NCBI GenBank assembly: GCA_021014325.1
Contig: CM037461.1
Span: 7,655,501-7,719,500, forward strand
Origin: Plazaster borealis
Lineage: Eukaryota > Echinodermata > Asteroidea > Forcipulatida > Labidiasteridae
DNA length: 64,000 nt
Direction of reading: 5' to 3'
Shown: piece by piece, positions 397-56,801 of the stretch
Layout: each line of letters begins with the position of its first letter
How positions within the stretch are numbered: the stretch's first letter is position 1
Program-made: the position numbers and the translations under genes
The notes under the pieces: generated by a model
Told to the model about the DNA's origin: nothing
Seen by the model: only the letters and a program-made list of their open reading frames with translations
Database searches by the model: none

Positions 397-780
397 TCAC
401 TGCACATTCGGGGAAGATTTCTGGAAACTCTTCCTCCAAAGAGGGCTCATCCACAGGTTCACCAGAGACAATAGGGATGCCGACACTTTACCTCCCGCAA
501 TGTCATTACCTAGCAATAATCCGACACCTTTCATCGGTAGACTAGGAACAACTCCAACATCCACAGGGCCAGTGAACAAATCACATTTCAAATTTACCCT
601 ATGCAACGGGACAGGCATAAAATTACCCCCAATACCTTGAATCAACATTGTCGCATTTAGCGAACTGTCTGGAGACAATGACAACACATCCTCCAGCATC
701 AGTGACTGTGACGCGCCTGTATCCCTTAGGATAACAACTGGACTGTCGGCTACATCAGACACACACGACACATACCACAA
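397..780 (-). CDS. pro: Retropepsin-like aspartic protease domain
   Basis: About 127 residues with the aspartic-protease signature DTGAS near residue 20 and the later LLLGND motif near residue 90, both characteristic of the protease in this gypsy group. It would cut the polyprotein during particle maturation. The frame has no ATG at its start (it opens at a TTG) and overlaps the end of gag in a different frame by about 30 bases; upstream it is closed by two TGA codons, so translation would need a frameshift from gag. It ends at 397, after which the pol reading continues only with further interruptions. Confidence 0.8.
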   Translation of the reverse strand: MWYVSCVSDVADSPVVILRDTGASQSLMLEDVLSLSPDSSLNATMLIQGIGGNFMPVPLHRVNLKCDLFTGPVDVGVVPSLPMKGVGLLLGNDIAGGKVSASLLSLVNLWMSPLWRKSFQKSSPNVQ

Positions 781-2114
781 TGAACAAAATCTTTGGAGAT
801 TTCATCAACTTTGTTGATTTCATCAGATATCTTCGAAGAAGAAACACGGTTGCCATCGGCCTCACCGGACTTCCTACGAAGTAGAGTGTCCTTACGGACA
901 AAAGCGACAGGCTTTTCAGACCGCCCTTGCTCGTCAGCGATGAACTTGAAACATCTCGCCTTCGTGTGACCTTTCTTATGACAGTAATCACACGGAGGAA
1001 AAGACTTCTTCTGGTCGTCCTTGGCTCCACTCGGTGATGAAGGCTTCTTTGGACTTTCAGTGCCAGACTGTGCCTCGGAACCTGACTTGCCCTTCTCAGT
1101 GTTTTTGTAAAAACCCTTTGACTGGAAATTAGTTTTGCCCATACTCAGTTTATGAGTTAATTCATAATCGTCAGCTACCACTGCAGCTTTCTTTAATTTG
1201 GTGATCTTGTGTTCTTCCAAATGGGTTTTGATACTCAGAGGGACACTGGTTTTGAATTCTTCCATGAGGACCACTTCTTTTAACTCCTCAAAATTTTTCT
1301 CACATTTGACAGACTGATACCATCGATCAAAAACAATTTCCTTCTGTCTAGCGAATTCAACAAAGGTCTGGCCATTCAATCTAGTCAGTTTTCTAAATTT
1401 CTGTCTATACGCCTCAGGAACCAACTCATACGCATTTAAAATGGATGCCTTAACCGTAGAATATTTACTACATTGGTCCTCTGAAAGTGTGGCATAGACT
1501 TTCTGAGCCTTACCCAGAAAAGTGCTCTGCAGGAGCAAAGGCCAATATTTCTCAGGCCAACTAAGATTTTTGGCAATCTTCTCAAACGACAGAAAATACG
1601 TATCAACATCGTGTTCGTTGAATTTTGGCACCAACCTCACGTTTTTCGCTAGATCAAAATCAATTGGAGTTCTCTCCTTGCCTTTATTTGAACCCACTTC
1701 TAATTCATACTTACGCAGTTCAAATTCTCGTTCCTTTTCCTTTTCTTTGAGTTCAAGCCTTCGTAGTTCAAGTTCTCTTTCTTTATCTTTTTCTCTTTCT
1801 TGACTTTCTCTTTCTTTTCCTCTTTCTCGACTTTCTCTTTCTTTTTCTTCAAACTCAAGCCTGAGCCTTTCCTTTTCAAGCTCAATTTTTGCAAGCTCAA
1901 TTTCTCGATCAAAAGTCTGCGGAGACTGAGACAACTCTAAGTTCAGTACTCCCGCTAGAACTTGCACTAGTTTTGCCTTTTTGGCACTTCTAGAAATTTC
2001 TACATGAACGTGTTTGGCAACTCCGTGCAACTCGTCTTTTGATAACTGTTGCAACTTCTCGATTGACAAATCTTCAGAATCCACGAAAGCTTGTGCATCA
2101 AACTCACTAGCCAT
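750..2114 (-). CDS. gag: Gag polyprotein of gypsy element
   Basis: A 454-residue open frame starting 92 bases after the primer site. Residues 1-70 are a small helical N-terminus; about 70-150 is an extremely charged Glu/Arg/Lys run built from imperfect repeats (a long coiled-coil candidate); about 155-345 resembles the SCAN/retroviral capsid-like region of animal gypsy elements; residues 375-388 form a CX2CX4HX4C zinc knuckle (CDYCHKKGHTKARC) typical of nucleocapsid RNA binding. The frame closes shortly after, while protease continues in another frame. In related elements gag and pol are usually one frame or joined by programmed frameshifting; here either is possible, though a mutation is simpler. 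Confidence 0.85.
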   Translation of the reverse strand: MASEFDAQAFVDSEDLSIEKLQQLSKDELHGVAKHVHVEISRSAKKAKLVQVLAGVLNLELSQSPQTFDREIELAKIELEKERLRLEFEEKERESRERGKERESQEREKDKERELELRRLELKEKEKEREFELRKYELEVGSNKGKERTPIDFDLAKNVRLVPKFNEHDVDTYFLSFEKIAKNLSWPEKYWPLLLQSTFLGKAQKVYATLSEDQCSKYSTVKASILNAYELVPEAYRQKFRKLTRLNGQTFVEFARQKEIVFDRWYQSVKCEKNFEELKEVVLMEEFKTSVPLSIKTHLEEHKITKLKKAAVVADDYELTHKLSMGKTNFQSKGFYKNTEKGKSGSEAQSGTESPKKPSSPSGAKDDQKKSFPPCDYCHKKGHTKARCFKFIADEQGRSEKPVAFVRKDTLLRRKSGEADGNRVSSSKISDEINKVDEISKDFVHCGMCRVCLM

Positions 2115-2205
2115 TTTTATACAACACTACAGACTAGTAACAATAAAACGTGCAACCTTGTTTGACAATTGTACACAGAAATATACGGCTTGTTTTTGTT
2201 CGATT

Positions 2206-13554: not shown

Positions 13555-13690
13555 GAACGTTTGTTGCGGTCAATGAAAAAAGGTATTCAAAAATTGAAAA
13601 GCGTATCGGGCGGAAAAAAATGTGCTCGGCCTTTTTGCCGGCGTATCGGCCAAAACAAATTGCGTATCGACCGATACGCTAGCTTGTACG
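13555..13690. repeat. Short repeats of GCGTATCG
   Basis: The word GCGTATCG (or its complement CGATACGC) occurs at least four times in about 100 bases, ending in the small palindrome GCGTATCGACCGATACGC. It adjoins the 3' end of the LINE and may be part of its tail or of its insertion site. Confidence 0.5.
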
Positions 13691-14275
13691 TGGGGAGAAC
13701 CCTGTGTCAACATTAGTTGGTTTTAAGAAACCAGTGATGGCTCTGCAACTGTCGTTGAGGGCAGGGTCAACTTTCTTAGGGTGTGAGGATCTTTCCCAGA
13801 CGGGGCAGGCATACTCTGCATCGGAGTCGCAAAGCGCGATAGCAGTTGTTTGGAGCGTGGATGCATTGGCACCCCATAAGGAGTTGGCCAGTTTCCGAAG
13901 GAGGTCGGTTCTTGTTCTCTCTTTGCCTTTGACCTTTTCAATATGCTGCTTGCACGAGAGCGTCCAGTCCAGGGTGACGCCGAGGTATACAGGGAAGTTG
14001 CAGTGTTTTAGGTGGACACCGTTCCACATCAGGGACTGTTTCATCCCACCGTCACGATTCCGTAGGTGGAACAGGCTTACCTGGGTCTTGGTAGGATTTG
14101 GCTTCAGTTGGTTGTCTGTGTAATAGGTAGTGAGGTTGTCTAGGGCTGATGTGAGGGTGGCCTCAATGTTACCTATGTTGGTGCTCTGAGCTGCAATCCC
14201 AAGGTCATCAGCATAGATGAAGCTCTTTGTCCCTTGGGACACTGGTTGGTCATTTGTGTAGATATTGAACAGCAC
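13679..14275 (-). pseudogene. LINE reverse transcriptase, YADD palm and thumb
   Basis: A 198-residue frame opening inside the LAPVLFNIY block, with YADDLGIA at residues 21-28 (catalytic Asp pair present) and the thumb-region YLGVTLDWTLSCKQHI. It then runs to the usual C-terminal part of jockey-like RTs (CPVWERSSH). It is the best preserved piece of this LINE. Confidence 0.85.
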
Positions 14276-14415
14276 TGGAGCAAGGACACTACCCTGTGGC
14301 AGGCCATTCCTTTGTTTCCTCCATCTGCCGAGCTTTCCATTTAGTTTGACAAAGAAGCGCCTGTTTCTTGTTGCAGTTATATCAGTTTGGTCAGGTGAAA
14401 GTCATGTGTCATCTC

Positions 14416-14664
14416 CTATAGCTTGTTGAGGAGTAGCCGGTGATTCACGGTGTCAAAAGCAGCTGTTAGGTCCACAAAGACAACACCAGTTGGTTGATTC
14501 CTCTTGAAGCCATCCTCGCTGTACTGTGTCAAGTTAATTACTTGGCTGGTGCTTGATTTCCCGGGTCTGAAGCCAGTCTGCTCTGGTATAAGGTGTTCTT
14601 CTGTGATAGGGCCGAGCCTGTTCAGGATCACACGCTCAAAAAGATTAAAGAGGGGGCACAGCAA
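14416..14664 (-). pseudogene. LINE reverse transcriptase, finger/palm fragment
   Basis: An 82-residue frame with RT blocks 1-3 (FERVILNRLGP, EQTGFRPGKSST, and FVDLTAAFDTVNH carrying a catalytic Asp). It lies between the N-terminal RT frame at 14645-15214 and the YADD frame at 13679-14275; frameshifts separate the three. Confidence 0.8.
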
Positions 14665-15214
14665 TGAGATTGGCCTGTAACTCTTTGTCCCTCAGGATCC
14701 TTACTCTGGCTTTCCTCCATGTCTTAGATAACTGAGACATGGATATGCAGTTGTTGAATAGCAAGAGAAGCCAGTGTTGTGTGTTCTTTCCGAAATGCTT
14801 GATCTGTTCTGTTTGGATGTCATCAAGGCCAGAAGCCTTACCGTTCTTGAGGCAGTCGATTGCTGTCTTGAGTTCCTTGATGGTGAAGTTCCAGGTAGAC
14901 TCTCTGTCACCCTGATGCCATGGGTTCTTTTTGTGGCTTCTCTTATGTTGGGTTTTGCCATTCATCAAGAGCTGGTGAGCAACCTGGTTTTCTGTTACGT
15001 TATAATGTACTGTTGTCTTCTTGGGGTCATTGTTGATTTTCTTAATGGTTAACCATGCTTTTTTACTGTTGTGTGAAATATCCACATTCTCGATGCGTTC
15101 TTGCCAAGATCTCCTTCGCTCTTCTGAAATGGCTGCCATGAGCATCTCCCCTACGTTCATGTATTCATCTGAGAAGGGATCCTCCTCATACAGCTTTGAG
15201 TACTGATCATACAA
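14645..15214 (-). pseudogene. LINE ORF2 inter-domain and RT N-terminal segment
   Basis: A 189-residue frame with the linker typical of jockey-like ORF2 (NSKKAWLTIKKINNDPKK) and the RT start region (LKNGKASGLDDIQTEQIKHF). It connects the endonuclease upstream to the RT blocks downstream. Confidence 0.8.
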
Positions 15215-17306
15215 GGAGGCGCTGGGAAATACCTTGCACTGTTTTTTTCGAACTGGTCATAGCTTGATGGGACAGGGTCAAGACCAGCTAAGGCTTCATC
15301 CAGGCCACAGGAAAATTGCTCCAAATCAGCTTTCTGAAAGTTGAAAGGGCGTCTAAAAGGAACTCTCTGGGGTACTACTGCAGCAGTAATGCCAATCAGG
15401 ATTGGTCTGTATTGTGAGTGAGGCATTGGCTCTAGGACTTTCTTCTTGCTTGAGTTTGTTATTTGATCACTTGTGAAGATTACATAAGGATTATAGCCTC
15501 TTTTCCATCGGCAGCTATTGAAAGAGGGAGGGAGTTTGGCATCATGAATTAGATCAAGATGATGAGCCTCTGCCCAACCCTCTACCAGGTTGCCGTCTTC
15601 ATTAGATTCACTGTAGCCCCAGGAGGTACTGTGACTGTTGAAGTCTCCAATTATAATGTTGATATGTTGGTAGTTGAAGGTGTCAGGTTCTTCAAATAGG
15701 AATTTAGAGCCAGGGGGTTTATAGACAGATGTTGAAGTTTCCCCAAGTTCACAGAGAGGATCTCTATATTGTCCCTTTCTGTCAGTGAGGTCTGGTCGAC
15801 AATAATGTCACTTTTGGTAAAAATAGCACTGCCATATTTCTCATGTAGCCTCTCAACAATAAGCTTCATTCCAGGGATTCTCGGTCAGTATTGTTGCTGG
15901 CCTCTGTTGGTCTCTTGTAGACACAATTCGTCACAGTCGTTCATGTGGCAAAACTTTCCAATTAGTTGTTTCGCCGAAGAGAGCCCCTCAGCATTGATGG
16001 ACATCTGTCATTGTCCGTCCTGAAAGAGACGCATGCTTCCGGCGGCAATTGGTGGGAGCCATCAGTTGTGGTTGTTGGTAGAGTGGATACAATATGTGCA
16101 ACGATGCAATAGATGCAGTAGGTAGTGGCTAAATGATCAACAGGTGATGATCGGTAGATGATGGTGGTACTATAATTAGACGTCCGGCGCGTCACAAGGC
16201 GTGTGCGTTGTGTTTTTCCGGAAGGGCAACATTCCAAAAGGTGCGTTACAGGCATTGGTGTTGTGTCTTTCCCCAACGAACAAAGAGGCACCACCAAAAA
16301 CAAAATATCGATGGAAATAAACTTTCCTCACCTCCGTTTAGCAGGAATTTGAAGTCGGCCTGTTCCAAACTTTCCCAGTGCTGACTATGTTACATGAACT
16401 GTAACTACTCCAAACTTGGCGGTTCTCGGTTTAGGGGAACTCCATATATTGGGTTAAATACGGAGCATGATGTTTGCCCTGTTGCTTTTGATGCCATTTC
16501 ACTCCGTCTGCATATGTACATGTACATGAGCCATAAAAACGTCTGGTTGCGGCCCAGCTTAATGCCCACACAGTGATCCAGTCAGCTGTGCAAAATCATT
16601 TGTGGAGGTGAAAATCAGACACACATGTTGGAGACTTAAGTGTACACATGTACATGCAAACAAAACATGTACATGTAACCTTGCCATAAAACCACATCGC
16701 ATTTGATGGAGCTTCTGAACAATGTATGACATTGGCAACAAAATACACAACAATTACTGCAGCCCAAGTTTTTATTTCTTTTCGGGTTAGTCTAAGATCT
16801 TAGTTGTCATTCTGAAACCTGGCATTGATAAAGGAATATTTGATCTTCATTTTGAGAGGAAAGTGTAAACCTAGGACATATTCTAAGTCTCCGCTTGGAA
16901 AATATGACAGATGTTTTTGGCGTAACAGTACGTGCCGTTGTGCAAGGGTTGGTATAAGTGGGCAGCGCTGGCTGCCTCCGCCTCTATTTTCTTTGCGCTT
17001 CTACTGCTGGTAGCTGTACTACCATTACAGTTCTGCAATTGAGAATTGAGTTATCGCTGGCACTGTTAGATTGGGACTACATTGCGTGTTGGCCCTCCTA
17101 CTGTGTTAGGTTGACTGGATGCGCTGCCCAGTCTGCAAGCCGCGATCGGTCAGTCATTGGCGCCGACAGTGGCTGCCACTGGCGGACCGCGGGCAAAAAT
17201 GTGGTGGTGTGGGAGGATTGGTTACAAGTGTGGAGGGGGGGTTGGTAGTCATTGACACACACAAAATAATGTGGACTCGGACACCTGTGGGTTCGGATTG
17301 ACCAAT

Positions 17307-25394: not shown

Positions 25395-28009
25395 TGCGGC
25401 TTTGAAGTTACTCTCGTAATGTTGTACGATTTAGGCCTATTTTAACAACAAAAGGCCGATCATACGTTGATACAATAATAACAAATGTTATTATGTTTCA
25501 ACTCGTTAGAACATTCTCTCCATTGCACTCATGAACATGAAATCATTGATTGGATTCACACAAAAATGAAAGTGCCATCATTCAACAGTGATGAACATTT
25601 TCAACAGTTGTCATCAAATTATTCTTTGAATGTTTTGTTCAGTTGTCATCAAATTATTCTTTGAATATTTTGTTTTGGACACCTACCATACCCCCTTCCA
25701 CCCCCCCACCCACCCACAAAAACAAACGAACATAAAACAACATACATGACACGACACACATTATAAAATACAACAAAGAAATCAAACAGCTAAAAGTACT
25801 TGAAAATCCTCATCAAATAATAAAGGTTAAAGGTATTACATAGATTTGTTAGAGCTGACAAAATAGCCGTAGTGAGTGTTCATGTTTTGTGTGATCAACC
25901 ATGTGGGAACTATTTCACAGAAAAAATGGTTCCCAAGTCAGTATTATCATGGAGCTATGTCCATAGTATTACCATGAGGCGAACGGTTTACACCGTATAA
26001 TAAGTGTTAACATAACATGTGTAGGCAATATGTATGTAACGGCGGAAATTAACCGCAGTTCATTAAACACAATAACCACTGCTTGTGACTATTTTGACGA
26101 TTCCTTTGCTCATGTTCATTTAATACTCTTTGCTTATCGCATCTCCAGTGCATCACAATACACAATCCATGTATACATCAAATATATTTCTGAACGTGTA
26201 GTTCGTGTCAATCTCAATGTTCAGTTCTCGGAGTAGTATATCAGGGCTGCGAAAGACATGAGCTGTATGTTATAATATTAAACGAGGTAAAACAGTTTAA
26301 CAGGAATACAACGTTCGACAAAAAAGTACAAAACCAAAATGGCTCTTACACAGTCAATTCCACCGAAGATTTACTCTACAAGCATTAGGGGTGTTCTCTG
26401 TCCCTTCTCTAGAAATCCAAGCAAGTTTGCACACAAACAAGTCTCTGTCTTGAAATGAAATTCAAGTTTTCTGAACAAGCTTTGATTCCACGATGCTCGC
26501 AACTATCTCACTTCTCCTGCCGCATGCCCGCCCTCAAGCGGTCAAGCTAAACTTAACTAACGGTAACAATGTACATGTACAATACAGGCTCATATACGTA
26601 CAACGAATTGGCTGACTAAATAAAAACAGGCCCAATGTTTTGCACATAGCATTTGTGGTTTTACATTGCCCTCATTGTGATGATTTTGCTGCAAATATTT
26701 TCAAAAAAACTCTTTATGAAGAAGCTGCAAATTCATTTACTTTCACCCTCAAATATTTTAATAAGAAGGGGTAGCTGTCACTCCAGCTAGCTAGAGTCGG
26801 ACAACTTCGCGGTCTCTTGGCACAACCCGACTTCACGCCGTGCACAACTCAAGAACCACGGCACAGGTGCTTGCTCAAACCTCTGTAGTTCATAAAGCCT
26901 GACCATACTCTCAAAAGAAACCTCCTTTGTAGTAGAATACTGGATTTATCAGGCAGAAAATGTGATTTAAATCAATGTCACAACATTCAACTTTATTAAA
27001 AGGGCTTTGTTTTGAGTTTAAAGTGTTTAAATTTATTGAAAATACAGCCGATTATGGTCCATCGGTACGAGTCTTCTCATGTCTTTATGTGTAGCTGTGT
27101 TTTTCTATACCCTCAGGTCACGAAATCACATGTAGACAATGTTTAGTGTACACGGCCGTGCATTAGCAAATAAATAGCGCCCTTTGTTGTCTTTTTGATG
27201 CCAGGCGCTCGAACCTCGCTTTGTATGCAAATTAGTCTATTCCACTGTTCGTCCCCTTTTCATTTCGTAGTCCCTTTTCTCGTCTGTGATTGGTTCATAA
27301 TAAAATGAATATTTATGTTAAATGAACAGGGTGCTTGAACACTGATGGTGAAATTGAATTACATGCTAATAAGCAAAATAAATAATTCATGATCGTATGA
27401 AAACAGACTCGCTGTGGGCTGTGTCGTGACGGTCGTTGTTTTAGCAAGTCAGTGCGAAAACTAGGCGCCGGAAAGAACAATTTTTCTCTGAAAGCAAAGT
27501 TTTTGCTGCTGAGAAACAGATACCTACTTGGAATTCAACTGTTTACCCATTACCAATGCTGATTTTTGAGGTAAGGAGAGCGGTAAATATTTTGTAGTAA
27601 GGTAGTATTTTCGGGACAAATTTTGTTGTTAAACGGCTGTAATGTATTTGTTGGCGTGTTTACACGCGGAAGACATTGGCATGTACGCCCATGTGTTGCA
27701 CTGTACTGTACAATGGGATAAAGCACGCTTGAGTACGTACACACGTGGACGAGTACGTACACACGTGGTTGTGTACGCACATTATTCATGGAGGTGTTTC
27801 ATGTATATTTTTTCATGTACATGTGAAATTACTATTCTGTAAATTTTTACAGTAACGCTGTGTCTGGGTTCTATACAGGCAATTTTCTGTATGGTTTTGT
27901 TCTAAATTTAATCACACAATGACCTTTAAATTTTACACAACAAACAATCAAAACAATGATATACTGATTGGGAAACATGAAACACAGGGCCGACTCCCGA
28001 GCGGAGTCA
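25395..28009. other. Gene-free stretch with small tandem repeats
   Basis: No supported gene. There is a 33-bp direct duplication at about 25608-25675 (GTCATCAAATTATTCTTTGA twice) and a tandem GAGTACGTACACACGTGG pair at about 27730-27766. A small hairpin (GACTCCCGAGCGGAGTC, 27991-28007) lies just left of the RAG1-like gene. Confidence 0.5.
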
Positions 28010-28015
28010 TTTTTT

Positions 28016-28021
28016 TTTATT
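28016..28021 (-). terminator. Possible polyadenylation signal
   Basis: AATAAA on the minus strand about 530 bases after the stop codon of the RAG1-like gene, within AATAAAAAAAAA. Reasonable as a 3' end signal, but such words are common in AT-rich DNA. Confidence 0.25.
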
Positions 28022-28551
28022 GACATATCTGCAGACTCTGGTCAGTCTCATTATACACACACACCGACACAGTCACTTGGCATACATGACACATATAATT
28101 ACAAACAAGAAGCTTTATGATATTCTAACTACCTCAAAATTGATGAATTACTTGCAGGCAGGCCTAGGTAGAGACCAAGTTAGTATAATAGTTAGTACCA
28201 TTTCACATCACATGCACAATGGTGGCCAAATTTCATGGCTCTGCTTCACAGGGAGGCGTAACTGTAGGTTTGCGCTTACAGTAAACACTACAGGAAGCAG
28301 GGGATTATGTGCTTACGTCAACAAGCCTATTTTATGCCTACCTATATATGCTTGTTATTACTCATGAGGCATTCTTTGCTTTCACAGCTAGCTGGCGCAG
28401 AAATTCATCGTTTGCAGTTGCACATTTAGCGGAAAATTACCGTAAGCGCAGACACTGGCTAACAATAACATTGATTGCAACTGATTCAGATGCAACAACA
28501 TTTCTTAGGGAAGTTTCCTAAAAATTACTGTTAGTTATTAATATGAAATAA

Positions 28552-31500
28552 TTAGTCCTCAAACTTGCGAGCAGACTTTGTAATTGTACACTTCTGAATT
28601 TCAGGAGTAGTGCTGAGATGGTGTCTCCGCACAACCGTCAGAAGTCTTTGAAGGGGGTCCCTCATTCCACAAACTACCCTAGCTGTTCGGTTAAACTCTG
28701 TGTGAATGAGCTCACCACCCTGCTCATTTATGAGACCGAATCCAACTCCAAATCTCTGCAGTTGCTGGACTGTATGATCTTCAAGAAGGTGTAGCTTTGG
28801 AGTGATTGAGGCTATTGGGAAGTTCCTTCGGTAGCACTCCATGAAGTCCTTGATACAGGTATCTGCAGCAACATTAACAAAAATATCACAGTGTGATTAA
28901 TTTTAAAGTGAAAGAAATTTAGCTGTTGTTAGTGAACTTTTTAGGAGAAAATCTTGTTGGTATTGAAAATAAAAGTGAATGAACAATATGCACACTGTTG
29001 TTCACATCTCTCTATTATTTTATTTGCCTCCATCTAGAATGAAAACATGATCAAGTGGTACTATTTAGACTTTTAATATACTTTTTACCTATTTTCTTGA
29101 TGTCGTCGTATGTGACTGGCTTTGCATGATTAATTCCATGATGGACATCGGCAAACATCATGAAGGTTTCTTTGAATTTTTGTCCAGTTTTTGCCGCTTG
29201 TCTGACGAGTTCCAGATGCTGAGAGACCGGGATGTTATCACTGGACATCCCTTCAAGAGTATGTCTGGGAGCATCTGTTAAAGCCTGGATGACATCAGCC
29301 TACATATAATGGCAAGTAAAATATAAAGTTAACATAATATTTTATCCGTTAGTATTTATACAAGTAAACTAAAATTTACGAGAGAAAGACTTTTAAAAGG
29401 ATGTAAGAACAATGATTTGTTAATAACCTGACAGCATCTGTGAACATGGTTCCCGACAAATGACTTTCCATGGTATGCCTGACAAGCAACTTTAAACTGT
29501 TTAAGAACATCATCCAAAGAGCCAGTTACTGGTCCCATCCCCATCTGTGGTCCAATTTCTGTTTTATCCTGAATATAAATAAAAATTACATGTACAGGTA
29601 AATTACTACTGAGAATAGATAATTATAGGCACTTTAAATGTAATTTACATTGCATTAAATTGAAAGAATGAAAAAAAATACGCACCAGTGTTTGAAGCTC
29701 AAGTCTAAGAGTGAAAGCTCTTCTTGCCATGTCTTGAAAAGTGTTGTCGACCAACTCAACGTCATTTTGGATCATATAAAGAGGCAGTTCTTCCTCTACT
29801 TCCTCCAATTCTGACTCAAGTTTTTGGAGACTTTCTTGGAGGGCTTTCTGCTGCTCTACTGCAGCATTCACTTGCTGCTCAAAGTTGCACTGAGGTGGCA
29901 TGTTGTCATCTTCATCATTAGTAATGCCAGTCACACATAAGGCAAACAGCTGTGAGTCTAGCCTTTCACATTCCTGCTCCAGCATGTCAAACAATTTCTT
30001 GAAGATTCCTAATGACATATGAAGACTTGGCAGTACAACCTAATTGTAACAAAAATAGAACTCGGTAAATAAACAAATCGGTGCAATAATTTTGAATGTT
30101 TTTGTTATAGGTATTTCAGTGCCAGCTTTAATCCAGTACACTTTACATACATAGTCAAGAGGAATGTCGAGCATTGGTACTGCGATGATGCTGTGAGACA
30201 CATCTTTGGCCCGAGTTTTCCTAGCTCCATCCTGGCAGTAGGCTTGATAGTCCTCATGTATCATATGCAGTGTGCGAGGATGAAAGTTGCCCCTGTCTGC
30301 GCGTGAAGACTTCATTGTCTCGCGAGTGCCCAGACAATACAGGCAGCAGTAACGTGCTGTAATACAAACGTAAGTTAAAGAACTTTTAAAAGACTCTAGA
30401 GAAGTAAATGTTGGTTACTGTTACATTTAAAGACTTCAAGAAAGAGAAAATCAACTGCTGAAAGACAGCGCGACAGTCCTTGTTTTCTGAACATACCATT
30501 ACAACTGCATATTCCGTAGACCTTTGTGAGGATTTCATAGTCTCCAAAAAACAACAATCTGATGGTCTTCCCTCTGAAAAAAAAAAAAAAAATTGCTACA
30601 ATTTGGTCAATACCTTACCAATGCTATTGATTGGCCCTCAAAAATGATCAACAGGTTATCTTTAATTCTATTCCATGTTGAACAAACACAATTGTACTTA
30701 ACAGTTGTTTTGTTTATTTCTATCAGCAGAGATCTAGAGATGGTGTCAAGGTTTCTGCAGCTTCAGGACCCAACAGAAGGTATTTTGTGGCTACGAGTGC
30801 ATCAGTTAAAGATTCTCCTTGCCATTCCTCTGCACTTCAAAATTTGAAAAACCTCACGTGGCGAAAACTTAATGTTTTATACCTCAATGTTTAAATATTT
30901 GGCTCCTTACCTCCATGTCTGCTTACGCAGCTTGGTCAGCTGCTCCATAACAGGGGGGAGTACTTTGCGAAGGTTTACGGAAGAGTCGTTGCCTTCAAAG
31001 CAAAGGAATACGACCGTGTTGTTTTTGGAGTTCAGATGGAGTGTGTTTGCAATCTGAAAGCACATCTTAAAGGACTCGCCTCCCTTATCCCCTCCAATCT
31101 TTATCCACACTTCATTCTCCGGAATGACACCCTTGTGCCAAGTTAATGAGCCATTTCTACAGAAAAAACAAAGGAAAGGTAATGTTTTTGTTGAAATACT
31201 TTTCTTTTGACCTAACACCACCAGCGTCGAACAGACCTCCCTGTACCAGGCATATTTTTTTTGTATAAAAGGAAGGATGTCTGCTTGAAAATGTGGGACT
31301 GTTTGTTAATTCCTCTTCAGTTGTCAGCTTGTGCAATTTTCAAAACAGGATTGAGTATCAGTGTCGTATTTAACTGCATACATGTACATCAGTGTTTAGG
31401 TGTTTACAAAAGAATACATTCTCTATACCTCATGCAAGTTATCACATCTTTCAGAAAGAATGGTTTCCTTATCCCTGTTACAGGTTTAAAATCACTACAG

Positions 31501-33654
31501 GGAACCTCAGTAAATAAAAGCCATCCAACAACACTCACTCTTCATGCCAATCAAGATAGTCGAAGATCATCCTGCTGAGGTCAATCACTGTGACACATGG
31601 TACCTCTCGTGTTTCCATCCCATCCATCCCTTTAGCGCTTGAGGACTTGAATAGCAGAGGGACCATCCTCCCAACAACATTGTCTTTGAGTAGCGCTGCT
31701 TGCTGTTTTCTCATGGAATATTTGGAGGGAATGGGTAATCCAGCACTGTTGAGGTATCTGAAAAAAGACAAACTCAAATTAAGTCTGCATTTGGGCTGCA
31801 CTGCAAGAATTTGTTTCCATGGTGACGAGGCTAAATCTCACCTTGAGTGATCCCTTATATGAAAACCTTTCTCAGAATAAGCCGTCAAACAGAGTGTATA
31901 GCATGATGATGGCAGATCATCCGGAAAAAACAAAATTTGTAATATTGGTTTAATGCTTTTTTTATCAATCTATTTTGAATATGTTGTTTACCTGCGGAGC
32001 TTCCTAAGTTGCTCCCATGCCAACTGGCAGTCTTGCATCATTGCTAGTGACTGATTTGGACTCTATGTGTCTGCAGGTTTAGGGTGGCTGCATGATGGTT
32101 TGGGAGAAACATTTGCTTCTTGTTGGCTTATAAGCTTCACGTAAGCTGGCTATAATTTGTCATAAAAAAGATCAAACATAAATTGTTATGAGGAAATTTA
32201 ACACGGTGTGTTCAAAAGTTAAAGGCAAGTAACATCACAGTGTTGTGATGAGGGAATTTATGTAGTTTTTAAAATGTACATTACATCATAAAACAACCAT
32301 ATAACTAAATTTCTTCAAGTTTTTTGAAAAAATAAATAACCACATTTATGTGTTGTTTTAATTCTCGTTACTTGTGAAACTGAACTTTCACTTTCATAAG
32401 TTTGTTATTTTTCCAATTCTATAATACAGCCTACCTTAAAATGCGACTTGTTTATTTTATTCTCAAACTATGCTCATAATTCTTTTTAGATACATGTACA
32501 AGTCGTTCGAACCTTATTTTATGTGTTCTTTTTTATACAGTAATTTTTATCTTAAGAAAAAAAAGTGATCCAACTTGTTTATTTGACTATTTGAAGTGTT
32601 TGAATTGACTACCTACCCTGCCAAGAGTCTTAAGTTGAGCATTTTGTGTCTGCTTGAGTTTCAACCAGATCCATCTGACAGCCGCTTCTTCAATCTCAGG
32701 GGAGATAGGAGCTCCTCTCGTGTGCTGAGATGCTAGAGATTTGAGTAAGCGTGCTGCTTCAGTGGCTTGAGTTGAAGAATTTTGTTGGCTTTTGATGAGG
32801 GAATCTGGTGCATAGTAAACTGCAAACTTCTGGGGTTTTGGTTTTGCGGGGGGGGGGGCGCATACATGACATTTCATCTGCTTCAGTTTGCCAAGTGAGC
32901 CACATAGGACACATACTGTTTGAAGTGATTGTAGTTGTACTCGTAATACCCTTGGAGATAAAGTTACATCTTGAATGTTTACTGCTTCATTGCAGATGGG
33001 GCACTTCACAACCTTACTTTTCATGTGGCGAAACCAACCAAGTAAACACTCAGCACAAAAGTTATGTTCACAAATAGTTCGAACAGCAGGCCAACCTAAG
33101 ATGCACTGACAAATGGTACAAACAAACATACTCTCCTCAGTTGCAGAATGAAGGATGTCCAAATTTACTGGAACGAGGTTAGATTCCAACAGACCGATGT
33201 TGAAAGACAGTGGGCCGGTCTCAACCTCACTTACTTGTTTTTGTGTTAAAGCCACATTTGGCAATCCGTATCCACTTCTTTTACGCTTAACTGGTCGACC
33301 ACCTCTACTTAATTTGATGTATACTTCACAAGTTTTACACGTCCCAGTTCTTGAATGTTTTTCCCAAGTAGTGGCAGAAGTTTCTCTATGTTCAGCTTTT
33401 ACAAGACATTCCTCTCTCAGGAATCTTGTACATCTCCAACACAAATTTTGGGGTTGAACTTGATCATCATCAAGCCACACACTGAATTGTAGCAGTCCAT
33501 AAATTTTCTTTGAGTATGTTTTTACATACACTGTTGTATTTAGTTTTGCATTACTTGTTGTAGATGGCTTAGAAGCTAAACGCCCACACAGTCTGCAAAG
33601 TCTGTTGAGTGCTTCTTGATGAAGAGTGAAACTCATGATTTTACTTGTTGTCAA
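28552..33654 (-). CDS. RAG1-N-terminus/transposase fusion, N-RAG-TP-like, 10 exons, intact
   Basis: Exons (minus): 33654-32617, 32062-31992, 31757-31539, 31156-30911, 30573-30497, 30356-30151, 30039-29686, 29568-29428, 29299-29089, 28862-28552. All introns are GT/AG, all phases agree, and the coding total is 2,874 bases (957 residues, no stop). The N-terminal 270 residues resemble the RAG1 non-core region: C20/C23 and C72/C75, C106/C109 before KRKR, and a RING C3HC4 (C179, C182, C195, H197, C200, C203, C218, C221), then C248/C251 and C262/C265. The body carries IKIGGDKGGESFKM (Asp about 466), LLFFGDYE (Asp about 536), a coiled coil (about 695-725), FVGNHVH, TPKLHLLEDH and NEQGGELIH (Glu about 902/906), a plausible DDE triad. 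Known relatives are RAG1-like transposon proteins such as N-RAG-TP; catalysis is inferred. It could be active or domesticated. I found no TIRs. Confidence 0.8.
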
Positions 33655-34946
33655 TAAATAAATAAATATTAAATAATGGAGAACATCATTTGTGTTTTAC
33701 GGCATGCTTACTTGTTTGATGTCCTATAATTCAGCAGTGTGTAGCCTAGTACTTAGTCTATTATTAGCTGGTACTACATGTAGAAGGTGTCCAGATTTTT
33801 TTAATTTCCCGCCACTCACTTTAAAGCATATGGGTGCTGTAGCGTGAAAGACTGGTAAGAAGTTTAATTCCCGCCGCCAGTACACTTTTACGCATTGGAT
33901 ATAGCGCGAGCGACTGGTAGCCAGTTTATTGCAACTGTCGGACTGTCCATGCCGCGGAGCTCACGTGATGCGTACGTTGTCTACTTTGAGAAAACCTTGT
34001 ATTTCACTGTCAAATTACATGAAATTTACCGCTCTCCTCTCAACCAAAGATGGAAATTATTTTGAGAACGAATGTACTCTAATCAAAATTGGGTAGTGTG
34101 AGTTTAGGAAAACCTAGAATTTTATGTGACAAAGGGAAGAAAATAAAGGTCGCCGAATCTTAAAAATGTAAAATGTACGGATTTTCCTCACACAGACGGT
34201 GCAAGTAAACGATTAATTCAAGCTTTTTGAAGCACAAAAAAAACGAATTGGTATGGGGAAGCTTGAAATCCAACCTGGACTGGTAAATATAAATACTAAC
34301 ATTTAACTTTTCTGCACCAATGGTCTTTTTATTCAATTTTTCCTGACTATTTTTACGATCTTTTTTATTTACACGGTAGCTAGGACGCCATGTTTGTTTA
34401 CATTTTTCTCATGACGTCACGGCCATTCTTTACTGGTAATGAAAACTCGCTCGAATGAATACTACTAGCTTTTTATTGCATACATTATGGCGAGTGAACG
34501 GCCGTGTGTAATCGGTCTGACTCTAGTATTATTATTAACAAGTTGGGGTGGGGGGAGGGTTTGCCTAGTGTATCGAACATTCATTCAGTCAAGTTTGCCA
34601 GAAGTGTGACCTCTTTTTTCTACCTAGACAACAAAAATGAGAGGTCTGATTTTACTTTCTTCAACCCCCCCCCCCAAAAAAAGGATAAAGTCCTTCCAAA
34701 ATTTAAAGAAATGGTGAGCTCAAAAACAGTAAGGGCAAAAATGGCCTATGGCTTACAATGGGTGGGCCTTCATTTAAATAAAAAACTTCCTTCGCAATGC
34801 TGAATGACAGGCCACACTACAATGCGGATGTTCATTTTTTTCATATGCACCAAAAAAAAGGGAGAATTTATTTTTTGTACCCTTTGGGACCTTTCCAAAC
34901 CACCCAAAAATGTTGACAACCTTTGCAATCTGGGTACCTTTCCTTT
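33655..34946. other. Upstream region between RAG1-like gene and inverted repeat
   Basis: No coding signal. It would hold the promoter of the RAG1-like gene; no TATA box can be fixed. G/C homopolymers occur at 34543-34557 and 34665-34675. Confidence 0.4.
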
Positions 34947-35663: not shown

Positions 35664-37163
35664 TCATTCACTGTCAGAGCTATCTGAGTCCTCAAGTACA
35701 GAAGTGAAGGAATTTGCACATCTTTCATCTGATTCACACTGGCAGTATGTGGTGCAAGACAGTCCTGCTGAATGACAGCTGCATCTATTAGTTGCACAGG
35801 GGTTGTCCGACTTACAGGAACAAACAACAGTCTGAAGGACAGCAGCTGGAGCAACTGCAGCTGGTCCATAGGTTGGGCATGGTTCCTGATTGCCCTTGAT
35901 GTCCCAACCAAACTTAGTGATATCTACATTTGGAGGATCATCTGTAGCAGCAGCGCACCAGATTAAAGTCTGGAGGTGTGCACGTTTGACATGTAGAACA
36001 GCTGCTTCATTTGTTGGGGGCAGGCTTCTGATTGCAGGTGGTTGTCGTTTTCTGCAAAAGGTCTGGTACCTGAGACTATTAAGGTCAGATCCTGGGTTGC
36101 CTCCATATAGGGAAATCAGGAAATCAATGCCTACCCGTTCTGCCACTGCCTGAGGAACAGTGCTGTCGCACATCTCGTCCAGTTCAAGGTCAGATTTTAA
36201 AAGCAGATTGAGTGCAGAAACTTTCCCTTTTCCATATGGATATGACACAGAGTCACATCCAGTGAGGGCATGAAGTGGAAGAACATTTTTGCATTTGTCT
36301 CCAAGTTTGTCAACAGTTTCATTGATGCTGATTACATTTCCATCATGCTTCTTTATTGAGACTTGGGTGGTGATGTACTTCCACACATGGTACACCAATA
36401 GTACAAAAATGTCTGTATCATCTGCAGTAACCTGAATGTGACTTTTGTCTTGGTGAAGGAGATGTATGTAACGGACAAGGTTCACATCTGCTTCCTCATG
36501 GTTGAACTGTGACTGTTCCTCACCGATTAGATGAAGTAAGGGATGTCCATGGGCAGTATTGCAGAGGACATTGATCAGCTACGTCTTATTTTGGTCACTC
36601 TTCATAATGATCTCTCGGTTTGGAAGCGGAGAAGTGCTTGTGAGATTGTGGTGTTGTGGAGCTTTGCCTCCAGCCCGACGAGTTCGTTCATGTGATTTTA
36701 TGGAGCCTGGTAGATACTTGTCAAAGATGATGTACGTCAGATGCCCTTTTGAGTACTTGTGGCAGAAATTGTTTGCAAACTGTTGAGTGGTACAAATCTT
36801 TGGCCACAGAATATGATAGAGTGCTTCATTCCCGTCAACTATCTCAAGGTCTACGGGGTCCAAAGGGGCAGCTGCATTGACAGCCAACTTGGAGATAAGG
36901 ATGCTCTTTGTTCCTTTTCGCATGTTGCCATACTCATTGAACAATGAAGAAGGCACTGGAGCAAGTTCATATCTGAAGAGGTCTTGCAAATGAATGTCAC
37001 GTTTTTGGGAAATAACCAGCAGGCGGGCGTACAGCTTTTCCATGTCATATGCATGTCCAAAGCCAACTTTCAGACCTTTCTTGGCAATCTGCATCGTAAC
37101 AACTCCCTTTTTCAGAGGTTTGTGAAAGCCCCCAGGAAGGTTCTTGGAGAATTTGGCTGCCAT
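35664..37163 (-). pseudogene. XPG/FEN1-like nuclease and CXC portion
   Basis: Separately listed because two stops isolate it: it starts at an ATG four codons after the TGA near 37176, in the same frame, and is cut by TAG at 36579. The first part has the N-region logic of XPG nucleases (VDGNEALYHILWPK; FDKYLPGSIK). The second has the acidic HEEADV, ADDTDIF and the GCD...GKGK segment corresponding to the I-region and helix-turn-helix. The C-terminus is a Cys-rich TSO1-like domain that normally binds DNA. Structure-specific nuclease activity is inferred from motif pattern only. Confidence 0.65.
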
Positions 37164-40100
37164 TGTTTGGCCTATTCAAAGAGAATTATCTACATTCACT
37201 TTGTCTGGTGCAACACGACCACTGACAATGTTGAGAAGTGCATCATCTGCCTGCATGTGAAGTGGGTTCGTGTACTTTCTGACCTCTGATATAATTACAT
37301 TTCGATCAGAAGCATCCAGCTGCCTTCTCCTCTTCCCTTCTTCCTTGTGTCCTGTGCCATCAGCGTCCTCCTCGCGTATTTCCCCATGTATTTTGTCAAA
37401 GGCAATGGAAAGTGTATTGCACAGGTGATATGACAGGGTCCAACTAGCTACCTGCTCCTCTGAAAGGGTCTTTCCAACCAGCCCACCTTTAGCTTTCCCA
37501 TAGCGGATGTATGTTTGCTCCCCAAACTGATCCAAGAAAAGTCCATTCCAGACCCCTTTCCTGTGTCGACACACATGTTCACCGTGGAGGAATGCCTCTG
37601 CTGTATCGTCTGGAAGATTTGTCATATCCACGAGGTGCCAAAGAATATATCTAGCATAATTCCAGTGACTGGCAGCAAAGAAATATGGCAGCATCCTTCG
37701 TAGACTGTACTGGTGAAGCAACCAATCTCCCTGCCTCTCTGCTCTAATGTACAAGAGTAAGATGCTCACAGGTGTTATGAGGCAATCTACGCAAAGGCGT
37801 CCTGTGCGTGATGTACGGGCACACTCCAAAGTGTCCTCAAGTTCCTGCATAGTTCTCTTTCCAGAAACAACGAAAGGTTCCAGCAGGGCTTCTGCTACCA
37901 TCCTCAATCCACGGAGTGCCTTAGGCCATGCTTTACCATTCAACATGTTTGCAACCCCTTTGAATGCTGCACCCAAGATCTCCTCCAGACCACTGCTGCA
38001 CATAAGGGTACCAATGCAACCAATAAAGGACATAATGACATGCATGCCACCGGGACGTACTATAAGATGCTGCCACCTCTCAGGATATGACCATTTGATT
38101 CGCATTGCAACTTTATACAGCTGCATATCTGCACTAACATGAATGTGATCAACATTGTGCTGTTTCATGAAGCTTTCTATGTAGAGGAGTGTCGTCAGAA
38201 CAGTGTCAGGATGCGAAGGTGTCCCATCTATTAATGGCCCTAACAGAAACCCTGTTGCTGGTCCAGGCTCATCATCACTGCCTTTAGCAACATTGAACAT
38301 GAAGCCAGACCACTCTGCCTGTGGATTCTCATCCTTGCTGCTTTCTATGACCTCCACCAACCATCTCACATCTGATTCCTGTGCAGTAATGATACTGTCA
38401 TGCAACTGCTTCACAAGGTTAAAGGGTAGACCCTGGTGTACCTCTACTAATGGTGGGAGTGGTTTCTCCTTCCCCTGGAAGTGTTGCAGCTGTACTGGGG
38501 CTAGGTCTTTGATTTTCAGCTGAGACATTTCCTGCTTGCTCATGCGGGGAATATTAACAGGAGTAACACTGCCACGGGGACCTGTGAGTGATCATAATGT
38601 AATTTTAACATTTTACAAGCGATTTAAAATCAGACTTTAAGCACACTAGGATTATCAAAGGCAACAAACTAGGTGATAGAACGAGTACTATCACCACGTT
38701 GGACTCGAAAATGTACATGTAGCTACTGTATAATGAACTATGTTTGAACATCACCACATTTGATTATTATATAGCTGTTCAAAAACTACTTTAGCTGTAA
38801 CATCAATGCTTCACAATACTATACTTTCTAATAAAGACTTGTTATCTGGCAGCATATCTACAGAGGTGAAATATGTATGTGTTATGGAAGTAACATGTAT
38901 CTACCAAAATAACGTACACAAGCATTCTACCTTGTGAGTTATGTGTGAATTCTACAGCCATGCAGTGAGATTCTCTTACTCCGTTTGGAGTATAGACATT
39001 GAGGTCGAAGTTGTCAAACCAGGCACTAAGCAGATGATCAGTTTGGAGCAGGTCTTTATAGAGATCTTTGTCCTGGGCTGTAACCTTGGCGACAGATTTT
39101 CGGAAACGGCGTACTTCATCATAGGAGCAGATGTAACCACTACTGTGCAGAACGTCAATCAGTTCTCTTGACCCAAACTGATGGTGAAGCTTAACAGCAA
39201 GGCCCAAAGTTGTCTGATTGAATGATTTGATCATAAGTGCCTGTATTGACTGGGCCAGGCTGAGTGACTCTCTAGTGACTGCGCCAGATGACACTAGTCC
39301 ACTTACAAGACTCAGCAGTGTGCTGCTTGTGTCTGCGACAGCAGTTCCAAAATTAAAACTACTCAAGTCATAGGCTTTAGGTTTTCGCTTCTCCTTTGCC
39401 TCTCTTAAAATGGTCTTTATAACTTCAGCAAGCTGGTCATCATTTGCTTCCACAAGATTCAGGTTGCCAGGAATATGCTGTCGCAGACAGAGCAAACTTG
39501 CACACCCACTTATCCTCATAACAATGAGGTCATCCCGGAAATGAGACTCTAGCATCTGTATAAGTCGTGCTCGTTGTTTCCGGATTGCGTCTTGGCAGAC
39601 CGTGGGTTCATTACTTATTGAAGAAGTAGCAACAGAAGCTGAATAGATCTCATAGATTTCAACAGAGTTCCACAGTTTACTTGGATCATTCTTTATGTCA
39701 AACACAACCCGTCGGAATGCATCACTGGATAGGTTCATGGGTTCCTCATCAGCAGCTTTGACAGCATAGCTTACATTTCTCTTAGCTACAAACGAAGTAT
39801 AACAATCATGGTGGTACTGCGCGTCAGCAGCGTGTAGATCAGAAACAGCACCCAGGATGCGAAGGTGAACCTGTCTTGCTTGTTCATCTCCTCGTTCTTG
39901 GCAAGTCTTCAGTAGTTTCTGTTTTAGTTCAATGGTTCTGCACTGAACTACTCTTCTCCACCTCTTTGGGTTTTTGGGTTTTTTGGGTACACATATCTCA
40001 GCACAAATAAGGCAACATGTTTTAAATTCAAACATTGACTGATAAGACCTCCTTTTCGGAGGAGGTTCATTGTCTTTATAGCTCTTGGAAATGCTCTGCT

Positions 40101-40337
40101 TGAGCTTCCTCTGTATATGTGTTTTCGACGTGTAGTTTGATACACAGGTGTGATGGAACTTAATAGTCAGATCAGGGTCTTTGTCAAGGGAATCTTGTAA
40201 GGCTATATATGTAAAGTGTCTTTGCGTTGCTTGCTTGATTCAATGATTTTTTTAATTCTTTCGGAGCCTCCAGTTATAAGACGACCAGTTCTATTACAGC
40301 TGAAATAGCAGCACTCAGAGTCCATTCCTACATCCAT
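35664..40337 (-). pseudogene. Large transposase-like protein with XPG-like nuclease and CXC domain, decayed
   Basis: Exon 1 runs from ATG at 40337 to 38931. The intron is 38930-38582 (CAAG/GTAGAA donor, CTCACAG acceptor) and exon 2 is 38581-35664, predicting about 1,440 residues. The N-terminus has CX3C/HHTC and CLIC...YHHDCY zinc motifs. The middle includes HIHVSADMQLYKVA, GGMHVIMSF and WNGLFLDQFGEQTYIRYG, where Asp and Glu are conserved-looking and may be catalytic. Next comes a nuclease: DLEIVDGNEALYH, IIFDKYLPGSIKSHERTRR, HEEADVNLVRY, TADDTDIFVLL and HALTGCDSVSYPYGKGK, which parallel the XPG N, I and helix-turn-helix parts. It ends with a CXC motif (CSCKSDNPCATNRCSCHSAG) and an acidic tail. 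Damage: a 2-base insertion near 40205, TGA near 37176 and TAG at 36579-36581; otherwise open. Confidence 0.7.
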
Positions 40338-55480: not shown

Positions 55481-55532
55481 AAGTGAAAACACTGGTCTTT
55501 GACAATTACCAAACGTGTTCAGGATGTAAAGC

Positions 55533-56801
55533 ATGAAAAGAATGTTCTTATTTACACCAGAAAAAGCCTTTCGAAGTGAGTATTCACATCTCGGTGAACT
55601 GAGGTCTTTTGTTTCATCCAACGTTCCAATTGTTGCCCTTACTGCCATAGCAACTTTGAAAACGCGAGTGACCATCATAAAATTGCTTTGCCTGCAGAAC
55701 CCGGTCCTTATCATAGAAACGCCAAGGAGAGACCATATCAAACTAAATGTTGTCATTTTAAAGGAGAGAGACATTTTCAAAACTTTTGAATGGAAGTTGA
55801 CAGAACTTCTAGAGAAAGGTGCAGAGTCCGATAGAACAATTATATACTGCAGAACAAAGCAGCAATGTAACGCTCTGTATGGAAAATTTGAAAGAAAAAT
55901 GCAGCCTGCATCATCACAACGAAGGTTGTTTGCGAAATTCCATGCACAAACAGACGATGACGTAAAGACCTATGTGATGGAAAACTTTAACATTGCAGAA
56001 GGCCTCATCAGACTTTTGTTTGCAACTGTGGCATTTGGTATGGGGGTTGATGTAAAAAGTCTTCATTGTGTTATCCATTACGGACCACCCCATTACATTG
56101 AAGAGTTCATTCAGGAGAGTGGCAGAGCAGGGCGTGACGGACAACAGAGTACATCAAACTTAATTGTATACCCTGGTGCAAGCAGACACACCAGACCTGA
56201 TGACCCTATGAAGAGATTCATTGATAGTACAACTTGCAGGCGAGAAGAGGCACTCTCAAACTTCGGTGGTCAGGACACAAACAACATTACAATGCACCTT
56301 TGCTATGATATATGTTCATCTCAATGTGACTGCGGAGAGGAAGCTTGTGGACACACATCTTTTGCAGAACAATCCCTAAGGCGAATAGCTCAGAGAGAGG
56401 ACAAAGTTTTCTCAACAAGAATTGTTGCCGAGAACCTGAAAGAGGAACTGAAAGGAAACATTCACAGCTATAGACTTATGCTTCTTGAACCTAAGGGTGC
56501 AAAGAACAATTATCTTTCTGGAGGTGACATTACCTGCAGATTGCCATCATTTACTGCTAACAAGATTATTGAAGAATGTCATATGGCCTTTTCCTTTGAA
56601 CAATTTAAGGCACGGTATGCATTGTATGATAAGGACATCGAGAAACGTGTGTTTGATATCATTCAGGAGACACTGAAAGATTGTATTTCTGTACCAGTAT
56701 ACCAGGACACGTCGGATTCATATGAGTCCGATTTGTCGTTTTCATCCACGGATGAAGAATACACCCAGCCAGTGCTTGTGACGTCATCAAATTCTGATTG
56801 A
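55533..56801 (+). CDS. RecQ-family helicase, C-terminal half
   Basis: A 422-residue open frame. Residues 14-24 (SEYSHLGELRS) and 34-41 (VALTAIA) are the RecQ region just after the DEAH box and motif III. Residues about 103-108 (IIYCRT) are motif IV. LLFATVAFGMGVD is motif V and FIQESGRAGRDGQ is motif VI with its arginine finger. A Cys-rich segment (CSSQCDCGEEACGH) takes the place of a zinc domain, and the C-terminus is acidic and Ser-rich. Motifs I-II and all upstream sequence are absent: the frame begins a few residues before the FR.EYSHLG block, just after a splice-like CAG at 55523 and a repeat array. It is either a 5'-truncated copy or the last exon of a gene whose earlier exons were lost. 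Helicase activity is not expected without motif I. Confidence 0.8.
   Translation: MKRMFLFTPEKAFRSEYSHLGELRSFVSSNVPIVALTAIATLKTRVTIIKLLCLQNPVLIIETPRRDHIKLNVVILKERDIFKTFEWKLTELLEKGAESDRTIIYCRTKQQCNALYGKFERKMQPASSQRRLFAKFHAQTDDDVKTYVMENFNIAEGLIRLLFATVAFGMGVDVKSLHCVIHYGPPHYIEEFIQESGRAGRDGQQSTSNLIVYPGASRHTRPDDPMKRFIDSTTCRREEALSNFGGQDTNNITMHLCYDICSSQCDCGEEACGHTSFAEQSLRRIAQREDKVFSTRIVAENLKEELKGNIHSYRLMLLEPKGAKNNYLSGGDITCRLPSFTANKIIEECHMAFSFEQFKARYALYDKDIEKRVFDIIQETLKDCISVPVYQDTSDSYESDLSFSSTDEEYTQPVLVTSSNSD

Follow-up and report, generated by a model that had tools for sequence, protein, structure and literature searches.

The stretch of Plazaster borealis DNA analysed here (the window, 64,000 bp, contig C7:7655501-7719500 of the 560.6-Mb genome G000) carries on its minus strand a gene for a RAG1-like transposase, enclosed in a 7,356-bp element that we assign to the Chapaev transposons. 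The gene model was built on GT..AG introns and compatible phases with exons chosen by eye, and it runs through 10 exons with consistent phases from an ATG at 33636 to a TAA ending at 28552, giving 947 amino acids. Re-reading the exons bore out the ten minus-strand exons, GT/AG sites and consistent phases described in an earlier reading made from the letters alone (the sequence-only reading). The features, in the order of the gene, are as follows.

34507..34510, right copy of the target site duplication (TSD), TGTA
34490..34506, minus strand, terminal inverted repeat (TIR) on the 5' side of the gene, CACGGCCGTTCACTCGC, matching the opposite terminus exactly in its first 9 bp
27151..34506, minus strand (that of the gene), whole predicted Chapaev-type transposon, 7,356 bp, with inverted termini CACGGCCGT and a 4-bp TSD
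32617..33636, minus strand, exon 1, 340 codons, with the whole RAG1-like N-terminal region in this single exon
33274..33627, minus strand, Chapa / RAG1_imp_bd zinc region, residues 4-121 (C14, C17; C66, C69; H94; C100, C103), from PF12560 and the profile match to RAG1
32992..33120, minus strand, C3HC4 RING finger, residues 173-215
32860..32913, minus strand, post-RING zinc finger C242, C245, H257, C259, invariant in the 7 rows of the alignment
31992..32149, minus strand, exon 2 as defined by the relatives, acceptor AG at 32151-32150
32063..32065, minus strand, in-frame TAG of the relatives-defined exon 2
31992..32050, minus strand, exon 2 in its shortest reading, acceptor 3' of the stop
31539..31757, minus strand, exon 3
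30911..31156, minus strand, exon 4, with the first predicted catalytic Asp, D456 (GGDKGG), at 31089-31087
30497..30573, minus strand, exon 5, with the second predicted catalytic Asp, D526 (FGDYE), at 30542-30540
30151..30356, minus strand, exon 6, with the zinc pair C545/C548 (C2C)
29686..30039, minus strand, exon 7, with the conserved LH (H616)
29428..29568, minus strand, exon 8, with the QAYHG / GNHVH block
29089..29299, minus strand, exon 9
28552..28862, minus strand, exon 10, with H869/H874 (H4H), the predicted catalytic Glu, E895 (NEQGGE), at 28713-28711, and the stop TAA
27151..27167, plus strand, TIR on the 3' side of the gene, CACGGCCGTGCATTAGC
27147..27150, left copy of the TSD, TGTA

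The gene is enclosed by inverted arms of about 17 bp that start at 27151 and 34506, are identical over their first nine bases and have TGTA on both outer sides. When 6,786 CAC..GTG pairs around the gene were tested, two matched over 9 bp and a TSD was found only for the 27151/34506 pair. Two sister families in the same genome repeat this picture of ends and TSD independently of the window copy: the first has ends CACGGCCG, and its copies on C7 (17.37 Mb) and C432, which align over 7,046 bp at 99.7%, are flanked by the TSDs AGCT and GAGG; the second has ends CACGTAT, and its copies, both on C7 (7.61 and 9.54 Mb) and aligned over 8,194 bp at 99.1%, are flanked by the TSDs AGAT and TCTT. From these 99% identical copies with different TSDs the sister families look recently mobile. 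A third pair, on C429 and C543 (99.0% identical over 18,090 bp), had no boundary in the stretch examined and was not used.

An RNase H survey equates DUF1280 with the Chapaev transposases and places it in one clade with RAG1 (PMC3985635), and a second source gives as the hallmarks of Chapaev ends of the form CAC..GTG, a TSD of 3-4 bp and three motifs, C(2)C, LH and H(4)H (PMC4079192). According to Kapitonov and Koonin 2015 (PMC4411706), Chapaev belongs in the Transib superfamily, two of its subgroups carry Chapa and then RING like RAG1, and Chapa and RING were inferred to be fused to the core already in the common ancestor; Chapaev transposons with these domains are credited, as cited, to Kapitonov and Jurka 2007. 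All five of the Chapaev features tested were found here. DUF1280 is the best-matching family of the window protein (67.9 bits, cut-off 25), the inverted termini read 5'-CAC...GTG-3', the TSD is of 4 bp (as in the four sister copies), and every motif is present (D456, D526, C545/C548, H616, H869/H874, E895), the columns being conserved in 41 of 41 rows for the Asp residues, 40 of 41 for the Cys and 38 of 41 for the Glu, with 3 gaps. The fifth feature, Chapa followed by RING, was seen by profile and conserved Cys/His and not by the single-sequence PF12560 cut-off. Its nearest matches among the proteins found are two from Asterias amurensis, P0001 (49%, covering 71% of the query) and P0002 (44%, covering 100%); other sea star relatives come from Acanthaster planci and Patiria miniata, and the named homologues as a whole from echinoderms, Hydra, the sea slug Elysia and the sponge Sycon. 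Both PF12560 and PF06918 are present in the precomputed domains of 15 of 28 proteins (the query, P0010, counted), three of them EukProt records whose 'scpid' identifiers we take to be Sycon gene numbers; the only record named Sycon ciliatum (P0043) has PF06918 alone. The element shares with Chapa-RING Chapaev transposons the Chapa zinc domain, the RING, the DUF1280 core, the CAC..GTG ends and the 4-bp TSD, while differing from published ones in its separate lineage, its ten exons and a probable nonsense codon. We put at about 0.93 the probability that we are dealing with a single copy of a cut-and-paste DNA transposon of Chapaev type, together with its transposase gene of RAG1-like build.

The gene had been called intact, which could not be confirmed because junction 1, spliced as in the relatives, reads into a stop. 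In P0001 and P0002 the last residues of exon 1 are Gly-Arg and the first of exon 2 are 'PA..', and the same Gly-Arg then PA.. stands at junction 1 of the sister copies L018, L019, L024 and L025 (exons read by eye; L018 has a frameshift in exon 2). The window gene has such a PA-type start at 32149, behind an acceptor that is strong by eye, and from there the frame runs into the TAG (32065-32063), which precedes SLAMM by five codons. A stop-free reading requires the acceptor to lie within this TAG or beyond it. The 957 codons without a stop counted in the sequence-only reading do fit a start at 33654 (18 nt upstream of the ATG) with exon 2 from 32062, but the acceptor AG of that exon is formed by the last two bases of the TAG. 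The window copy probably carries a premature stop and, by the splicing of its relatives, would probably end after about 368 residues, the N-terminal half only, with the full protein no longer made; the TAG may be a sequencing error.

We weighed whether this could be a domesticated host gene derived from Chapaev and expressed through an alternative exon 2 acceptor that skips the TAG. Such a history would suit a ten-exon frame that is open apart from the TAG, and also the copy number, as the window copy is the only full-length member of its own subfamily among the matches listed (these counts being lower bounds). The nearest other listed copy (C7:11269765-11271659, 94% identical over 1.9 kb) survives as a truncated remnant whose exon 10 contains a stop. 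However, the TSD is still perfect and the TIRs still agree over their first 9 bp, and the alternative acceptor would lie inside or just after the stop into which the relatives' acceptor reads. We consider domestication, which the sequence-only reading had offered as an option, to be improbable for an element bounded by TIRs and a TSD and carrying a probable nonsense codon.

The RAG1 non-core layout suggested earlier for the N-terminal part of the Chapaev-type transposase (CX2C pairs, KRKR, RING and further Cys) held up. The CxxC pairs and KRKR can be read in the protein, a profile of exon 1 matched full-length mouse RAG1 at 2.5e-17 and the RAG1 structure 21wb at 2e-7, the latter over the zinc region before the RING, and PF12560 is above cut-off in some relatives; the profile similarity therefore exceeds that of a generic RING. 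For the body, the statement that it is not a RAG1 core in sequence has to be withdrawn, as the family profile scored 27.3 bits against the mouse RAG1 core compared to at most 6.0 bits in 2000 shuffles. Its conserved Asp, Asp and Glu blocks were correctly noticed, Asp ~466, Asp ~536 and Glu ~902/906 being the conserved D456, D526 and E891/E895, and the body is a transposase, the predicted fold of the relative P0002 matching RAG1 and Transib in keeping with an RNase H fold; the match to the core spans RAG1 459 to 1008, where the two folds align with some 16% identical residues. RAG1 427-458, a part of the nonamer-binding region, is not covered by any of the alignments, and no separate search for a nonamer-binding domain was made. 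Transib is described as lacking the N-terminal non-core region (PMC7204232), and the window protein differs in this from HzTransib.

Membership of the RAG1L/TransibSU (ProtoRAG) lineage proper would also bring together a RAG1-like N-terminus and a RAG1-core-like fold, and the window gene is like vertebrate RAG1 and RAG1L in its collinear N-terminal zinc/RING part (by profile), core fold, D, D and E, C2C at equal spacing and H(4)H. Against this, the TSD is of 4 bp, where Transib and TransibSU have 5 bp according to Kapitonov and Koonin (PMC4411706), and the best-scoring family is DUF1280. PF12940 (RAG1) does not appear among the matches of the window protein at E up to 1, although its core has distant homology to RAG1 by profile and by the predicted fold of a relative. 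The longest listed stop-to-stop frame in the element outside the exons is of 128 amino acids, though a gene of small exons would escape such a listing; no RAG2-like partner was seen in the element, judged by the length of open reading frames alone and with no kelch search made. We regard this placement as very unlikely.

That unrelated open reading frames were stitched together, for which it speaks that the exons were picked by eye and that exon 2 of the sequence-only reading dodges a stop, has a negligible chance given the full-length homologues P0001, P0002, P0008 and P0010 with the same order of parts and exon junctions that line up with those relatives. In the alignment with the two Asterias amurensis proteins, all but the first of the 9 junctions (2-9) lie where neighbouring residues pair up, junction 7 having a gap of one residue next to it, and exons 2-10 have 0-5 gapped residues per exon. 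The gene is not a chance assembly: named homologues occur across phyla and the ends of the element were found.

Several points weigh against a Chapaev-type transposase of RAG1-like build. PF12560 is below cut-off for the window copy alone (E 0.0023-0.009), and the closest relatives (P0001, P0002, P0008, P0018-P0020) have no RAG1 N-terminal Pfam match at E up to 0.1, so that the case for a RAG1 N-terminus rests on profiles and on more distant members; a RING fold by itself does not single out RAG1. The structure predicted was that of P0002 and not of the window protein, and the first 370 residues of the model are of low confidence. An hhalign comparison of the core with a single RAG1 sequence gave 41% probability (E 2.8e-4), and H874 to E895 spans 21 residues compared to 20 from H942 to E962 in RAG1.

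The transposase is made up of a RAG1/Chapa-type zinc region, a RING with a further zinc finger, and a RAG1/Transib-like catalytic core. By analogy with the biochemistry of RAG1 and Transib, its subunits would pair the CAC..GTG ends, and D456, D526 and E895 would hold the metal ions for two-metal cleavage of the ends and their joining across the 4-bp stagger. The N-terminal half of RAG1 serves dimerization, ubiquitin ligase activity and nuclear import, and by the same analogy the N-terminal half here would be regulatory rather than catalytic. The window copy is probably disabled for the full-length protein, its product stopping shortly after the N-terminal part.

N-RAG-TP of Aplysia (Panchin and Moroz 2008, as cited) is described as a transposon encoding a RAG1-N-terminus-like protein and made entirely of that part. 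The window element, compared with it by description only, differs in that its N-terminal part corresponds to exon 1 and is followed by a transposase body. Two ideas on the origin of RAG1 have been published: that its N-terminal half came by recombination of Transib with an N-RAG-TP element, or that it descends from an ancestor already having Chapa, RING and core (PMC4411706). We tentatively suggest, with rather less than even confidence, that Chapaev transposases of this type are homologous to RAG1 over nearly all of their length, non-core and core, that a common ancestor could have passed on both halves of RAG1 as a unit and that they were not joined late, that the zinc module is portable, and that N-RAG-TP could be exon 1 of a Chapaev transposon with an unrecognised, intron-split core, because exon 1 here alone holds the whole RAG1-like N-terminus. 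The kinship of RAG1 and Chapaev had already been proposed, and the RAG1-like layout was published in 2015 (PMC4411706); the bearing on RAG1 origin is genuine but anticipated in print. New here are the predicted RAG1-core fold, the exon 1 observation and a fusion to a P-type transposase described below (no dedicated literature search was made for the fusion). A transposon with both halves and, in a relative, a RAG1-like predicted core fold makes the common-ancestor idea more concrete, and well-bounded elements with apparently recently mobile sister families are material for testing it.

The Chapa module also occurs apart from DUF1280. RAG1_imp_bd has 22 matches in the genome, 11 of them with DUF1280 within 5 kb downstream on the same strand; four others were characterised (L012, L013, L023 and L042) and seven are unclassified. 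L012 (C13:5212435-5215713) and L013 (C7:6437223-6440504) are both decayed; they share 98.7% identity over 2,057 bp and have differing upstream flanks. In L012 Chapa (PF12560 5.7e-8) and the transposase region share a single reading frame that two stops interrupt, and in L013 the two are in different frames. The transposase frame of L013 matches TNP-like_RNaseH_N (3.2e-26), with Tnp_P_element just under cut-off (22.5 against 23 bits) and a P transposase structure at E 0.0035. Kapitonov and Koonin 2015 state that Chapa is in no other known transposable element (PMC4411706). Its presence next to a P-type transposase suggests transfer of the module between transposases as well, for which any account of RAG1 origin must allow. 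L023:1339-3099 (C2, ~9.570 Mb) is a 587-aa open frame with Chapa (PF12560 6.2e-6), a RING, a GRPRK that we take to be an AT-hook-like motif, and no transposase match in frame; it is possibly a host gene with a RAG1-N-terminus-like layout. L042:3576-5954 (C22, ~26.762 Mb) is a 793-aa open frame with Chapa (4.2e-9), then low-complexity Thr/Pro repeats, and no transposase match. The Chapa regions of P0026, P0030 and P0018 also matched zf-AD below cut-off (E 2.9e-4, 0.0022 and 0.055), and the zinc region of the RAG1 N-terminus is possibly a remote relative of ZAD (zinc-finger associated domain).

At E up to 0.001 the genome holds at least 41 DUF1280 matches. Among the 41 matches listed, 20 are on C7, which is 4.4% of the genome (binomial P 9e-17), and 19 of these lie in a 6-Mb stretch (7.6-13.62 Mb), its edges set post hoc and the copies non-independent; the clustering may reflect low recombination.

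Elsewhere in the window, consecutive long frames at 35664-40239 (minus strand) belong to a repeat-like gene with the motif HALTGCDS, the three longest having no Pfam match at E up to 0.001. A 458-aa frame at 750-2126 (minus strand), probably a retrotransposon Gag, contains a SCAN domain (1.2e-12) and weakly matches a C2H2 finger. A reverse transcriptase frame at 13679-14401 (minus strand, RVT_1 1.2e-12) is probably a broken LINE, with further frames on the same strand at 14645-15807. A 423-aa frame at 55530-56801 (plus strand) matches Helicase_C (1.3e-17), is RecQ-like by eye and is possibly transposon-borne.
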